From assembly GCA_013297885.1 (NCBI GenBank), contig JAAFIR010000008.1, forward strand, positions 1 to 64,000: a DNA stretch of 64,000 bases. Direction: 5' to 3'. Numbering within the stretch: position 1 is the first letter of the stretch; every line of letters starts with the position of its first letter. Positions 45,746 through 53,640 of the stretch are shown in pieces. The notes under the pieces are model-generated. The model searched no databases. It was not told the DNA's origin and worked only from the letters and a program-made list of their open reading frames with translations. Source of the DNA: Leptospirales bacterium. GTDB lineage: Bacteria; Spirochaetota; Leptospiria; Leptospirales; Leptospiraceae. Both the position numbers and the translations under genes were made by a program.

Positions 45746-46735
45746 ATGAAATGTAAAAATTTATTTTTGTTGTGCAGTTTTTTAGTAAATTGTTTTGGAT
45801 ACTTAAAACCAATTCCTATATTAGATGAAAACAAAACTGAAAAATTAAAACAAGACCAAGAATTTATTTTTTTAGATGAAAACTTTAAACCTTTTGAAGT
45901 TAAAATCAAAGATGCAGGAAAAGAAATTTTAAAATTCCAACAAGCAAAAACAATTTCAGAAAAAAACTCCTTAGCTATATATGGATTAAAATTAGATTAT
46001 GTTTTAGAAAGTGAAAAAATATTTTTAGAAAATTTTAAATCCAGTTCAGACTCTTTATATGTTTATTTGAATTTACATAGACTATATTACCAATTGGAAG
46101 AATTTGAAGAATGTAGAAAAATCACAAAAGAATTTTTTAAGAAAAATAAAAATTTAAAATTTTCAGCTCTTGATTATTTACAAAAAAGAAATAGAATTGA
46201 AGAAAAAATTATTTTATTAGATGTGATTTCCTCTGAATCAGAATTTGAATCTAAATCTTTAGTAGAGCTTGGGACTTATTTTTTAAGTATTAGTAATTAT
46301 CCACAAGCTGAATTTTATTTTAATAAAGTTTTGGCAACTTATGCGTTTAACAAAACTGCATTAATTGGAATGATGCAAATCAAACTAAACGAAGAAAATT
46401 ACAAACAAGTAATTGATTACGGAAATATTCTTGAAAAAGAAAAACCAATTGGTGTCAAATTTACTTACCTCCAATCAAAAGCTTATTTTGAAATTGGTGA
46501 ATATGAAAAAGCTATCAAGTTAATTGAATCTTCTTCTGAATCAGAAAAATTAGATTTGGAAGTTCTAACTATTTGGAGAGATTCTTATTATTCAATAGAG
46601 CCAAAAAAAAATCTAGACAAACTAAAACCTTATCTTGGGAAACTAAATAAAAATCAGAGCTTTATAGAAAATTTTTTCTATCGCGACAGCAAACTAGGCA
46701 AAAAAAATTCTGATTTTATAATGTATGGGTTTTAG
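45746..46735 (+). CDS. TPR-like lipoprotein
   Basis: ATG 45746 is chosen: the open frame extends back to 45713 but that part lies in element K. The signal MKCKNLFLLCSFLVNC ends at Cys16. The 329-residue product is helical, with repeat-like helix pairs (YVYLNLHRLYYQLEEFEEC, FLSISNYPQAEFYFNKVL, YLQSKAYFEIGEYEKAI), i.e. tetratricopeptide-type. Probably a periplasmic scaffold. It overlaps the next gene by 11 bases, so the two are co-translated. Confidence 0.75.
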   Translation: MKCKNLFLLCSFLVNCFGYLKPIPILDENKTEKLKQDQEFIFLDENFKPFEVKIKDAGKEILKFQQAKTISEKNSLAIYGLKLDYVLESEKIFLENFKSSSDSLYVYLNLHRLYYQLEEFEECRKITKEFFKKNKNLKFSALDYLQKRNRIEEKIILLDVISSESEFESKSLVELGTYFLSISNYPQAEFYFNKVLATYAFNKTALIGMMQIKLNEENYKQVIDYGNILEKEKPIGVKFTYLQSKAYFEIGEYEKAIKLIESSSESEKLDLEVLTIWRDSYYSIEPKKNLDKLKPYLGKLNKNQSFIENFFYRDSKLGKKNSDFIMYGF

Positions 46736-48113
46736 TTTGAAGATTTCATCATTATTTTTTATTACTTGCACTTTATTTTCTGAGAATATTAATTTTGTAT
46801 CTAACCCAAATGGAATTAAAATTTACGAAGACAAGTCTTTCAAAAAAAGTTCATTTATTCCATACAAAGATTCTTTTGAGAAGATTGGAAAAGAACTTGA
46901 AGTCGGAAGGAATCCTTTTTTTGCTCAAGAAATTAAATATAAAAATAAAACCTATTTTATTAAAACAAGTGCTGATAAAAATAATAAAATAATGCCCTAT
47001 CAAAAAGTAGTCATAAGTAACCAAGAAGCAGCTAGCAATGAGAATAGCATCATCAGTTTTGGAAAGGGTTATAAAGCTGAAAAGAGCTATTTTTATTCAA
47101 GAAACAAAATCAAAATTTATAAAAAGCCTTTTTTGGATTCAATAGATAAAGAGTTTTTAAATTCTTGGACAATTTATGAGTCAGATTTGTATTCTTATTC
47201 TTGGTATAGAATTATATTAAATCACGAATATTATTATGTACAGAATGAAAATCTTCAAAGTGATTCAAGAAAACAAGATTTAGAAAAGCTTTTGAATTTT
47301 AAATTTTTTAGTTATAAGAATTTTGTTGCTGATTCAAAAGAATCCCTACAAGGGTATGAATTAAAAAATGATAAATTAGAAAAATTTAAAATCTTAAATA
47401 AACAAGTATTTTTATTAAAAGGCGAAATTGAATTTGGTAATAAAAAATACTATCTAATAAATTCAAAAGAAATTTTAAATGATATTTATATTGAAAAAGA
47501 AAAAGTAAAAAAATTTAGCTTTAATGAATTTACATATTATACTTTAAAAAGTTCAAAATGGAAAAATGATCTATTTGTAAAAAATGTTTTAACCAAAAGA
47601 ATTGTTGATCCTTATTTTTCAGTTATCGATGAATTTATAGATTTTAGGACTATAAAAAAAACAATGATTCCACTTGGTAAAACATATAAACTTATTTTTT
47701 TAAATTATTTTGGCAAATGGGATTATTCAAAAGAAAATGAAATAAACCAAAGAGTTTATTTTTTAAAAAATGATAAAATTGTTTTTAGCCAAATTGTTCA
47801 TGAGAATATCAAAGTTCATGATTTTGACGGAGATAAAATTCCTGAAATCATTCTAGAAAATGAAGAAGCAAGATGGGGAACAAATATTAAAATTATAAAA
47901 GTAACAAAAGATGAAAAATTATTTTATAAAAGTTTTGAAAACCAAAAATTCCATATTAAGAAAAATTTAATTCTATTTGATGAAAATCAAGGTCTTTTTT
48001 TAGATAAAAAAATTTTAAAATTCCAAAATGGAAAAACATACTTATCGAGTGCAAAAATTGATAATGGAAAATTTATTCTCGCTAAATGGTATCAATTGAA
48101 AAAAAGGCATTAA
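46725..48113 (+). CDS. Exported SH3-like/FG-GAP-like protein
   Basis: A 462-residue exported protein (signal about 1-19). The N-terminal region has two SH3-like passages (NGIKIYEDKSFKKSSFIPY and KIKIYKKPFLDSIDKEFL), and the C-terminal part carries a calcium-type VHDFDGDKIPEIIL followed by repeated strands. The layout mirrors the lipoprotein at 10425-11801: SH3-like modules, then a D-x-D-G-D repeat. So the two may be distant paralogues. Coupled to the TPR lipoprotein upstream. Confidence 0.7.
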   Translation: MGFSLKISSLFFITCTLFSENINFVSNPNGIKIYEDKSFKKSSFIPYKDSFEKIGKELEVGRNPFFAQEIKYKNKTYFIKTSADKNNKIMPYQKVVISNQEAASNENSIISFGKGYKAEKSYFYSRNKIKIYKKPFLDSIDKEFLNSWTIYESDLYSYSWYRIILNHEYYYVQNENLQSDSRKQDLEKLLNFKFFSYKNFVADSKESLQGYELKNDKLEKFKILNKQVFLLKGEIEFGNKKYYLINSKEILNDIYIEKEKVKKFSFNEFTYYTLKSSKWKNDLFVKNVLTKRIVDPYFSVIDEFIDFRTIKKTMIPLGKTYKLIFLNYFGKWDYSKENEINQRVYFLKNDKIVFSQIVHENIKVHDFDGDKIPEIILENEEARWGTNIKIIKVTKDEKLFYKSFENQKFHIKKNLILFDENQGLFLDKKILKFQNGKTYLSSAKIDNGKFILAKWYQLKKRH

Positions 48114-49307: not shown

Positions 49308-49736
49308 ATGTGTGATTTTGAAAAAGGATTTAAACTTTGTTCTTGTATATTAGAAAAACCTAATACAAAAAAATTTGGTAAGTCAAAAAAATACAAAGAT
49401 TTACCACAAAAAAAATTAGGCTACCGATGGTATTTATCTCGATTTGTTCAAAGCGTAGAAGAGCCAGTAATGGAAGGAATTTATGAACTTCCCTCAAAAG
49501 ATTTAGGTAAAGGATTAAATGATGATTGGATTTTGATCAATTTGAATTTAAAAAATTGTTTTGATTTTGAATACTTTCCTTCTGAAGGAGATAATTTAAT
49601 TTTTCGATCAGATGATAAATATGAATATTTATCATTTACTTTTACAAATGGAACTTGGACGAAAAATCATTATGAACCATTTAGCACAATACTCAAAAAA
49701 TTAAATGAAGGTAAAATCGAAATGATTGATGGATGA
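49308..49736 (+). CDS. Protein of unknown function with duplicated 3' end
   Basis: I do not recognise the family. The 142-residue soluble protein has an N-terminal Cys trio (MCDFEKGFKLCSC), a Lys-rich turn, and a strand-rich body (ISRFVQSVEEPVMEGIYEL-like YLSRFVQSVEEPVMEGIYEL, WILINLNLKNCF, YLSFTFTNGTW). Its last 48 codons lie within a 187-base direct repeat whose second copy is at 50587-50773, where the same coding bases appear without an upstream half. Confidence 0.6.
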   Translation: MCDFEKGFKLCSCILEKPNTKKFGKSKKYKDLPQKKLGYRWYLSRFVQSVEEPVMEGIYELPSKDLGKGLNDDWILINLNLKNCFDFEYFPSEGDNLIFRSDDKYEYLSFTFTNGTWTKNHYEPFSTILKKLNEGKIEMIDG

Positions 49737-49780
49737 TTTTATTTTATCTAAACAATCTTTTATATAAATCTTGAATTATT
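49594..49780 (+). repeat. 187-bp direct repeat, first copy
   Basis: Identical to 50587-50773 except at 49669 (A here, G at 50662) and near 49776, with a constant offset of 993 bases. It covers the 3' end of the 142-residue protein gene, its stop, and the last 32 bases of the gene whose intact copy ends at 50737. The two copies flank a segment of about 806 bases with two lipoprotein genes. Confidence 0.92.
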
Positions 49781-49867
49781 CTATTATTTGGTATTCAATC
49801 GAAAAAATTCTAGACATCTCAATACTATTTTTTTATAGTTATAAAAATTTAGTTTGAGGGTATAAAA

Positions 49868-50146
49868 ATGATTAAAAAATTTGTAATTAGTTTAGTTACA
49901 CTTTATTTTATTAATTGTGTTTCGTTAGGCAAAGTGGGTTATTTAGTTCCAGCAGAAAATGACACTAAAGAAGTTTCAGATGAAGTTGCTGGTCAAAAAT
50001 GTGGGACGTTAGTTATTAATATTTTTGATGATGTCAACAGAGACTTAGAATCTCAAGGACAAGCAGCAACTTCTCAAAAAAACGTTGCTGTAGTTTTTGA
50101 ACAAGGGGCTTTTTCAGGTTGTATGCAATTAAGGAAATTAAAATAG
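49868..50146 (+). CDS. Small TRL-like lipoprotein
   Basis: A 92-residue lipoprotein (signal MIKKFVISLVTLYFINC, Cys17). The mature part has a Gly/Val-rich opening (GKVGYLVPAEND), a Cys in GQKCGTLVINIF, and a C-terminal Cys in FSGCMQL. This suits the TRL-like/small lipoprotein group known from Leptospira-type genomes, but the match is weak. It lies inside the segment flanked by the direct repeat and ends 13 bases before the next gene, with which it shares a strand and layout. Confidence 0.65.
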   Translation: MIKKFVISLVTLYFINCVSLGKVGYLVPAENDTKEVSDEVAGQKCGTLVINIFDDVNRDLESQGQAATSQKNVAVVFEQGAFSGCMQLRKLK

Positions 50147-50159
50147 GTTAGGAGAGAAT

Positions 50160-50525
50160 ATGAAAAAAATAATTTTAGTGTTTTTTATGATATTTAATTG
50201 TAGTCATAACATGGGTAATTTCAAAGAATATTCCATTGTAGCTCCTTCAAATTTGATACCAATTGGTTCAGGTACAGTAAAAGGAGAAAATTGTAAATGG
50301 AGATTTTTTACTTTAAGAGGTTGGTGGAGTACAAGCCTAGCTGAAGCTACAAGAGATGCTTTAACTAAAGCTCCTGGAGCAACAGGTTTAAAAGACGCAG
50401 TCATATCAGGTCATCATGAATCGTTTTTTTATGCTTGTGTTGAAGTTGAAGGAACACCTGTGAAAGAAGCTGGTTCAGAAACACCTTCTAAAAGTAAAGA
50501 AGTACCTTCTAAAAAGAAAAAATAG
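50160..50525 (+). CDS. TRL-like lipoprotein
   Basis: A 121-residue lipoprotein (signal MKKIILVFFMIFNC, Cys14), preceded by TAGGAGAG. The mature part has GTVKGENCKWRFFTLRGWWSTS, then EATRDALTKAPGATGLKDAVISG, the Gly/Ala helix and strand of TRL-like proteins, and a Cys in FYACVEV. It ends in a Ser/Lys-rich tail. Together with the upstream gene it fills the repeat-flanked cassette. Role unknown. Confidence 0.7.
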   Translation: MKKIILVFFMIFNCSHNMGNFKEYSIVAPSNLIPIGSGTVKGENCKWRFFTLRGWWSTSLAEATRDALTKAPGATGLKDAVISGHHESFFYACVEVEGTPVKEAGSETPSKSKEVPSKKKK

Positions 50526-50586
50526 TATATCTTTATAATTGCTAAAAATTAAATACATAAGAACTTCTGATTAGTATTTCTTTTGT

Positions 50587-50773
50587 ATTTAATTTTTCGA
50601 TCAGATGATAAATATGAATATTTATCATTTACTTTTACAAATGGAACTTGGACGAAAAATCGTTATGAACCATTTAGCACAATACTCAAAAAATTAAATG
50701 AAGGTAAAATCGAAATGATTGATGGATGATTTTATTTTATCTAAACAATCTTTTATATAAATCTTGAAATATT
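50587..50773 (+). repeat. 187-bp direct repeat, second copy
   Basis: Second copy of 49594-49780. It contains the last 48 codons of the 142-residue gene without the front part, its stop, and the true 3' end of the DUF4304-like gene on the minus strand. So the ancestral state was probably the two genes tail to tail with seven bases between their stops, later split by the cassette. Confidence 0.92.
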
Positions 50774-51372
50774 TTCTCATTCGGTTGTTTACTTGAGTAG
50801 TCAATTGCTTTTTCTAAAATTTGTTTTGAATTTTCTAAATCATTTATTAAATAAAAAATGATTCCAGCATAAGTAAACCGGATGCTTTTTGCTAGTGGAA
50901 AAATATATTTAGAATTTTCAGTCGATTCAATTAAAAATTTAGCAATTTCATTTGGGCTTTGAAATTGATTCAAAAAAGGTAATCCAAAATTTTTTAATGA
51001 ATCATAAATTGATTCTCCAATTTTGTTATCTTCTTCAAAATTTTCTTTATTTAATGTCCACCAAATATCTTTTTTTTGAAGTTTTAACATTCCTATTCTA
51101 GCAGAGCAAGCAGAATGAGAAATGTTTAAATTTTTTGGTTCAGGTAAATTTGTATAAATTGAAATTAAATTTGGAACATAAATTCCTAAGTTAAATGTAA
51201 ACTGGTAATCTACCTCAGATGGAATTTTACTAGTTTGCATTTCAATTAAATAAGAATGAGTAATTTCTTCTTTTAAATAATACCATTTCTTTTTTTTAAA
51301 TCCATGTTCACCTAAGATAGGATTGATATAATTTTTATGAATATGGTTAATTCTATTTGAATATTGGTTCAC
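50737..51372 (-). CDS. DUF4304-like protein
   Basis: A 211-residue soluble protein. The N-terminal half fits DUF4304: an opening helix then GEHGFKKKKWYYLKEE, an IEMQTSK strand, YQFTFNLGIYVPNL, and a Cys-containing ISHSACSARIG followed by WWTLNKENFEED. The C-terminal helices are less conserved. DUF4304 function is unknown. The final 32 bases are duplicated at 49744-49775 in the first copy of the direct repeat. Confidence 0.75.
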   Translation of the reverse strand: MNQYSNRINHIHKNYINPILGEHGFKKKKWYYLKEEITHSYLIEMQTSKIPSEVDYQFTFNLGIYVPNLISIYTNLPEPKNLNISHSACSARIGMLKLQKKDIWWTLNKENFEEDNKIGESIYDSLKNFGLPFLNQFQSPNEIAKFLIESTENSKYIFPLAKSIRFTYAGIIFYLINDLENSKQILEKAIDYSSKQPNEKIFQDLYKRLFR

Positions 51373-51597: not shown

Positions 51598-51860
51598 CCT
51601 TAATAAAATTTTTTAGTTTTTAGAAAGTTTCATCATTTTGAATGAACCAAATTTTTTTTAAGAATAAAATGTAATAAATAAAATAGAAACATAAACCCAC
51701 TAATCTAAAAAAATAGAACTCAGGTTAATTCTATTTTGCTCTTAGTTCTAATATTAAAATTTGAATATGCAATAATTATTTTTGGTTAAAATTGTTCAGA
51801 ATAATTCTTTCAGAGCAAAACTATTTGTTTAAAACGATTCTAATTTTATTATGCCAATTA

Positions 51861-53153
51861 ATGTACGTTATTTCAGAATCAACCCCACTTGGATTAGAAC
51901 CCCTTAAAAAAGTTCCATATAATGTTTTTGTTGTAGATGATAGTCCTTCTATGCGTCATGTTATTAAAACTACTTTTGTAAAACTAAAGTTTAATATTAT
52001 TGGTGAAGCAGATGATGGTGAAGAAGCATTAGAAAAATTAAGTGCAATGCAAACATTACCAGACTTAATTTCTGTAGATCAAGAAATGCCAAAAATGGAT
52101 GGTGTTCAAACCACCAAAGAGCTTAAAAAAAAATTCCCTAAGTTAAAAATTATTTTTATAACAGGTCATGCTGAAGCACATTTAGTAAAAGAAGTGATTC
52201 AACTTGGAGTTCAATCGTATGTTGTAAAACCATTTAACATGGATAGTATCACAAGAAAACTTGCAGTCCTTTTGAATCGAAAAGACATTCTTGCAAAGCT
52301 TGATACTGAAGTTGATAAAATTGATTTAAGTGAGATCAGACTTCCAAATTTACCAATTGCTTTTTCAAATGTATTAGCTTTTGATATTGATGATCCAAAA
52401 AATGGAATTGCAGAACTTGAAAAAATTATTGCACCAGATGTTGCTTTTTCAAGTTCCATAATTAGATATGCTAATTCTGCTTTTTATGGAAGGTCTGGAA
52501 CTATACGAAATCTAAAAGACGCGATTTCTGTTATGGGTGTAAAAGAAACTAGAAGATTAATCATAGATGAATACAACCAAACTTTAACAAATCCTCTTAA
52601 AGAAGAAATTTTTGTAAAACATTTAAGAGAAATTCCAGTTTTATCTTCTTTGATTGCACATGATATTTTGGCTCCATTAAATTTGAGAAATTTAGAGCCA
52701 GATATTTTTATAGTTTCGCTGATGAAAAAAATCGGGATGAATATTCTTGCACTGAATTTTGTAGAGAAATACCAAAAAGTTTTGAAGCTATATGAATTTG
52801 GTGTAAAGACTTTAAACGAGTTAGAGCGAGATGAAATTGGTTATGACTCAACAGAAATTGGTAAAAAGGCTTTTGAGATTTGGAAAATGCCCGAACATTT
52901 TATTAAAGTAATTACATTTCAAAATTTTAACAAAACTGAAGTTGCATTATTAACTGATATGGATCGAGTTACAAGAATTTCTGAGTTATTGGCAAAACGA
53001 CTTGCAAAACTTTCTCTCACTGTGAAAGAAACTGAAGTAATTGAAGCAATCCTCGATTTTTATGATAAACCTCAAAACACTCTAGATATTTTTAATGAAG
53101 AATATTTTGAATTAATCAATGATCATCCTTACATGCGAGATATAAAGTTATAA
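51861..53153 (+). CDS. CheY-like response regulator fused to an HDOD domain
   Basis: ATG 51861 is chosen; a TTG at 51792 would add 23 hydrophobic residues not expected for a regulator. The 430-residue product has an N-terminal receiver domain: NVFVVDDSPSMRHVI, the phospho-acceptor Asp in LISVDQEMPKMDGVQ, the Thr of IIFITGHAEAH and the Lys in YVVKPF. The HDOD domain follows from about 170 (LPIAFSNVLAFDIDD, IIRYANSAFYGRSGTIRNLKD, AISVMGVKETRRLI). HDOD proteins often bind nucleotides or link signalling to motility. Confidence 0.85.
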   Translation: MYVISESTPLGLEPLKKVPYNVFVVDDSPSMRHVIKTTFVKLKFNIIGEADDGEEALEKLSAMQTLPDLISVDQEMPKMDGVQTTKELKKKFPKLKIIFITGHAEAHLVKEVIQLGVQSYVVKPFNMDSITRKLAVLLNRKDILAKLDTEVDKIDLSEIRLPNLPIAFSNVLAFDIDDPKNGIAELEKIIAPDVAFSSSIIRYANSAFYGRSGTIRNLKDAISVMGVKETRRLIIDEYNQTLTNPLKEEIFVKHLREIPVLSSLIAHDILAPLNLRNLEPDIFIVSLMKKIGMNILALNFVEKYQKVLKLYEFGVKTLNELERDEIGYDSTEIGKKAFEIWKMPEHFIKVITFQNFNKTEVALLTDMDRVTRISELLAKRLAKLSLTVKETEVIEAILDFYDKPQNTLDIFNEEYFELINDHPYMRDIKL

Positions 53154-53319: not shown

Positions 53320-53640
53320 ATGAAAAATTCTATATTTATATTTACCGTTATTTTTGGTTTAAGTTTTACTCTTTACAGCCAAAGTAAAGATACATCAAAA
53401 ACAACTCAAACAAAAGAAGAGACTGCAAAGATGGAAGCTAAAATAGCAGGTGAAAATGCAGCTGTAAACGGTAATGCTCCTTCTAAAGTAGGAAATGAAG
53501 CTAAGTCTACAACAAATTCAAATACTGTTTCCGTTAAAGATACTTCAAAAACAACTCAAACAAAAGAAGAGATAACAAAAATGCAAGCTAAAATAGCAGG
53601 TGAAGAAGCAGCTATAAAAGGTAATGCTCCAAAAAAGTAA
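53320..53640 (+). CDS. Small exported protein with internal repeat
   Basis: I know no family. ATG 53320 follows AAGGAGAAT, a good ribosome-binding site. A signal peptide (about 1-19, FGLSFTLYSQ) precedes an 85-residue mature part that is a doubled unit: KDTSKTTQTKEE, K-M-x-AKIAGE, AA, GNAP occurs at about 23-60 and again at 70-105. Composition is low-complexity (Lys, Thr, Glu, Ala, Asn). No Cys is present, so it is periplasmic or secreted rather than lipidated. Confidence 0.65.
   Translation: MKNSIFIFTVIFGLSFTLYSQSKDTSKTTQTKEETAKMEAKIAGENAAVNGNAPSKVGNEAKSTTNSNTVSVKDTSKTTQTKEEITKMQAKIAGEEAAIKGNAPKK

Follow-up and report, generated by a model that had tools for sequence, protein, structure and literature searches.

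A conserved pair of small genes for predicted lipoproteins, L1 and L2, lies between two nearly identical direct repeats that are built from the ends of two convergent genes, A and B, and both A and B are complete. The locus is part of a 64,000-nucleotide stretch of a Leptospirales genome, which we call the window. The account that we favor, and that we consider about evenly balanced between right and wrong as a whole, is that a piece of DNA bearing both L1-L2 and a duplicate of the A/B ends entered the A/B junction by RecA-type or microhomology-driven recombination. The features of the locus are as follows.

49308–49736, + strand: gene A, 142 aa, complete; orphan family with the motif MCDFxKGFxLC
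49594–49775, unstranded: repeat copy 1 (R1), 182-bp core; includes the final 143 nt of gene A and 32 nt shared with the gene B terminus
49776–49792, unstranded: diverged extension of R1
49868–50146, + strand: lipoprotein 1 (L1), 92 aa; signal peptide and lipobox-like Cys
50160–50525, + strand: lipoprotein 2 (L2), 121 aa; signal peptide and lipobox-like Cys; distantly TRL-like
50544–50597, + strand: inverted repeat forming a terminator-like hairpin (arms 50544–50568 and 50573–50597)
50587–50768, unstranded: repeat copy 2 (R2), 182-bp core; 48 codons from the 3′ end of gene A, running into the genuine gene B terminus
50737–51372, − strand: gene B, 211 aa, DUF4304 protein, complete
50769–50785, unstranded: counterpart of the diverged extension, within gene B

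Geometry of the repeat and its junctions

Compared position by position, the two cores differ at one base in 182 (A at 49669, G at 50662). An earlier note on this DNA had described a 187-bp repeat (49594–49780 and 50587–50773) at a constant offset, composed of the 3′ end of one gene and the final 32 bases of a convergent gene. That description holds, with 185 of the 187 positions matching, the differences falling at 49669 and 49776, the offset being exactly 993, and the gene ends being the terminal 143 nt of A and 32 nt of B. To the left of 49594/50587 the similarity stops abruptly and none is seen beyond. To the right of the core, 12 of 17 positions still match, a level that is equalled in ~0.16% of random position pairs, and in the frame of gene B (− strand) this extension reads PNNRII on the R1 side and PNEKIF in gene B itself. 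Beyond this extension, no further duplicated sequence is present on either side of the repeat.

A BLAST search of the whole 4.6-Mb assembly with the 199-bp repeat recovered the second copy (E = 5e-92) and, elsewhere, only partial matches of 37–45 nt, with no further full-length copy. Repeats as close together and as similar as these are few in the same genome (437 kb, then 2.32 Mb scanned), and the repeat is therefore not due to chance.

The junction between the lipoprotein block and R2 coincides with the hairpin 3′ of L2 (−15.6 kcal/mol, z −4.4), the 3′ arm of which crosses the junction and extends 11 nt into R2. At a random junction, an 11-nt inverted match has a chance of 0.04–0.09%. The 11 bp concerned, ATTTAATTTTT (50587–50597), are probably the microhomology used in the L/R2 join; on the simplest reading, which was reached post hoc, the native terminator of L2 would have ended in these letters and been fused to an identical stretch within gene A. 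An inverted repeat at the junction was also considered as a general signature and was rejected, being missing at all five remnant junctions of the four other loci described below.

Polarity and age of the insertion

The single mismatch in the core falls in a codon that specifies His in R1 and Arg in R2. Three aligned sequences of the gene A family have an invariant His at this position, so that R1 retains the ancestral base and the Arg of R2 is a derived change in a free fragment. L1-L2 appears to be what was inserted into A/B, because in the opposite case A/B must have split around a resident L1-L2 while duplicating its own middle. The proposal that the lipoprotein block divides a former tail-to-tail junction of A and B, destroying neither gene, is supported.

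The single difference in the core points to a recent event, but the core and the adjoining extension differ sharply in divergence (1 of 182 positions versus 5 of 17; Fisher p 1.4e-5) and do not fit one clock. Either the extension is non-homologous, or its border with the core is a crossover point where two B alleles of slightly different sequence met, or the core was homogenized. The earlier note took the near-identity of the copies to mean that the event is recent, which does not follow as written, as five differences in 17 beside one in 182 fit an allele boundary or gene conversion equally well. Judged from these sequences, a recent insertion is possible.

The lipoprotein pair

L1 and L2 are the only genes between R1 and R2. 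Their signal peptides and lipobox-like cysteines were judged by eye from the translations, and both proteins are predicted to be small, exported lipoproteins. There is no sign that either of them drives insertion. Homologues of L2 are found in five related genomes (G005, G015, G016, G017, and G019), and an L1 homologue lies directly upstream of the L2 homologue at five loci in four of these (one each in G005, G016, and G017 and two in G019). The alignments show the same adjacency, gene order, and conserved Cys pattern at these related loci, which indicates that the pair pre-dates its present locus. A duplication that captured the two genes, as had been suggested, is therefore not a fitting description; the pair is old and conserved in related genomes rather than newly captured cargo. 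In G005 the pair adjoins cytochrome c oxidase genes and shares no synteny with the present locus. Across the phylum the distribution is patchy, with an L2-type match in 16 of 296 genomes. The search for these lipoproteins elsewhere in the genome, which the earlier note had called for, detected one L1-L2 copy only.

By profile–profile comparison, L2 aligns with the TRL-like family PF13146 over 52 columns (hhalign E 1.6e-5) and L1 shows a weaker resemblance; with hmmscan, neither protein matched PF13146 above the cut-off. On this weak profile similarity, L2 is a distant relative of the TRL-like family. In related genomes, true TRL genes adjoin homologues of the L1-L2 pair at two loci (L004 and L007).

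Genes A and B

Relatives of gene A occur in Cyanobacteria and Bacteroidota (Nostoc, Calothrix, Flavobacterium, Chryseobacterium, and others), and the same genome has a 50%-identical paralogue (C61:32832) that adjoins a DNA methylase gene. Neither A nor B was found among 40 relatives, and the search of these relatives, from which both genes are missing, yielded no empty A/B site and no donor. In plasmid and phage collections, the only matches were the Calothrix relative of gene A and one weak DUF4304 match. The idea that B regularly accompanies A was rejected, with no B homologue at the 48 gene-A loci. A Uma2 protein and a nucleotidyltransferase encoded nearby both match PADLOC candidate defence models, which marks the A/B block as accessory. 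The repeat had been described as host sequence; it does derive from the ends of resident genes, but "host" is misleading for genes that are accessory and missing from the relatives.

Three other features of the window were recorded. A response-regulator/HDOD gene (51843–53153) is most similar to a paralogue elsewhere in this genome (C27:19254, 74% identity), compared with 58% within the genus. A small exported protein (53320–53640) contains an internal 96-bp repeat (53385–53480 and 53535–53630, 90%). A 462-aa gene (46725–48113) has three paralogues in the genome (C22, C26, and C1), and a search of eight relatives gave no match; the paralogue on C1 is among the genes whose 3′ end is repeated.

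Gene-end repeats elsewhere in the genome

Self-comparison of 2.32 Mb of the 4.6-Mb assembly revealed a minimum of four further genes that are intact and have a second copy of their 3′ end downstream, beyond intervening accessory genes.

C18:5608–11382 (L137): TaqI_C-domain restriction-type gene with two 3′ remnants (192 bp, 94%; 196 bp, 97%)
C56:34920–37744 (L206): glycosyltransferase gene, 3′ end repeated 1.8 kb downstream (93%); DUF1554 protein between
C44:119413–125186 (L085, L086): prmC, second copy of the 3′ end 86% identical and 4.9 kb downstream
C1: 449-aa gene, 3′ end repeated; nucleotidyltransferase-like gene between; decayed, with frameshifts

On C18, three copies of the 190-bp TaqI_C-gene 3′ end separate a DUF2326/PDC-M68B block with two small partners and a HEPN_LA2681 gene. 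Six accessory genes stand between the prmC copies, among them genes for a further L2-like lipoprotein and for a DUF488 protein, the stop codon of the latter abutting the prmC remnant. A 67-bp direct repeat (94%) also surrounds a relB/relE-like pair (C30:45543–46349, L089).

At the C18, C56, and prmC loci the reading frame is kept, and 23 of 37 differences fall at third codon positions (pooled p ~3e-4 if the differences are independent). This bias indicates that the second copy probably arrived in a working allele, and the three sets of remnants would then probably be incoming alleles rather than products of local copying. The intact end of prmC outscores the remnant against the genes of all seven relatives compared, and a search for its native neighbor placed the two candidate genes on different contigs in relatives. 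Remnants reach the stop codon at five loci and represent 5′ parts of genes at two others (C49 6202/9670 and C1 53111/54655), a bias toward 3′ ends that is suggestive only. In 400 kb of a control genome (G004), no gene-end remnants were found, with fewer than one expected.

Discussion

We propose that genes A and B met tail to tail in the ancestor (A> R <B) and that incoming DNA, in which the conserved L1-L2 operon was already fused to a second version of the A/B ends, would have recombined with the resident A/B junction to yield the arrangement A> R1 – L1 L2 – R2 <B. The crossover would be homologous, either a Campbell-type single crossover or an equivalent break repair anchored in the shared ends, and not a site-specific integration. 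The L/R2 join itself would have formed at ATTTAATTTTT, at the end of the terminator-like hairpin of L2. Uptake of outside DNA is possible, given that the genome encodes ComEC. The geometry of the repeat, its single-copy status, the conservation of the pair at other loci, the ancestral His in R1, the lack of a tyrosine recombinase match on the contig, the hairpin that spans the junction, and the other gene-end repeats in the genome all argue for this account. Three considerations count against it. R1 and R2 differ by one base, and local copying would look identical; the 17-bp extension may be chance or microhomology (~0.2%); and the analogy with the other loci is indirect, as those loci may have different origins.

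The main rival, unlikely in our judgment but a serious contender, is microhomology-driven template switching or break repair within the cell. Replication would have passed through A into the end of B, jumped to an L1-L2 locus, copied ~800 bp, and returned via ATTTAATTTTT to gene A, 182 bp upstream of where it had left off, with no need for incoming homologous DNA. In favor of such a route are the perfect 11-bp microhomology that the L/R2 join implies, the match at 12 of 17 positions where R1 meets the lipoprotein block, and the near-identity of the copies. It would require, however, that the L1-L2 template was lost or foreign, as just one copy is detected in the genome, and the copies at other loci show allele-like divergence.

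An older partial tandem duplication is improbable. Here, two larger copies of the A/B end would have been reduced by deletions that left L1-L2 between copies kept alike by gene conversion. The sharp shift in divergence at the edge of the core is in keeping with this history, as are the tandem and partial gene duplications known in this genome, but several deletions and the loss of the remaining duplicated sequence would be required, and the repeat has no other duplicated segment beside it.

Less probable still is a site-specific mobile cassette, in which a small circle of L1-L2 and a gene-end copy serving as attachment site would have been integrated by a recombinase acting in trans. The size is cassette-like, the 3′ end of a gene is a standard attachment site for integrative elements, and a few tyrosine recombinases are encoded on other contigs. 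A recombinase is missing nearby, however, and the repeat sequence differs at each comparable locus, with no common core and with lengths from 112 to 199 bp. The 993-base circle invoked in the earlier note finds no support, as the contig, C44, has no match to the tyrosine recombinase family PF00589 and other routes yield the same structure. An assembly artefact is very improbable: the assembly is a draft of 72 contigs, but the copies differ at one base and lie inside a 136.9-kb contig with unique sequence on every side.

Among known systems, the locus can be compared with Campbell-type (single-crossover, insertion-duplication) integration, in which an insert likewise lies between direct repeats of its target, the target stays complete, and recombination between the repeats reverses the event. 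Flanking repeats of resident sequence, of a length suited to RecA, are present here as 182 bp of the ends of A and B with one mismatch; the difference is that we infer the present insertion from structure alone. Integrative elements that use a gene 3′ end as attachment site and bring a substitute for it share with the locus a 3′ end repeated downstream, accessory genes in between, and restoration of the target gene, and direct repeats do stand at both ends here, one of them restoring the 3′ end. They differ in that the locus has no integrase in it or near it, with two lipoprotein genes being all that the repeats enclose, that the 182-bp repeat spans two convergent genes, and that no attachment core recurs, the other loci using unrelated gene ends. 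Integron gene cassettes also combine small genes with repeats at gene 3′ ends, whereas the repeat here is confined to one locus and is part of coding sequence; the search for an integrase covered PF00589. We found nothing specific in the literature.

Direct repeats of this length and similarity suffice for ordinary RecA-type deletion, and recombination between R1 and R2 could thus delete the L1-L2 pair, in agreement with the removal that had been proposed for the cassette. By itself the event amounts to one small insertion with a target duplication, and it explains how such a pair of lipoprotein genes can be gained and lost. A broader reading, which we regard as distinctly doubtful, is that this genome gains accessory genes (defence, toxin-antitoxin-like, and lipoprotein) through incoming pieces that carry the 3′ end of a resident gene and insert immediately 3′ of that gene, time after time and without an integrase of their own, leaving a lengthening row of old gene ends as scars. 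The insertion looks like an ordinary recombination event in kind, and the pattern across the genome looks moderately interesting. If the other loci share this origin, the scars would be a readable record of integrase-free stacking of cassettes behind resident genes, including genes of defence type, and would predict which blocks are unstable.
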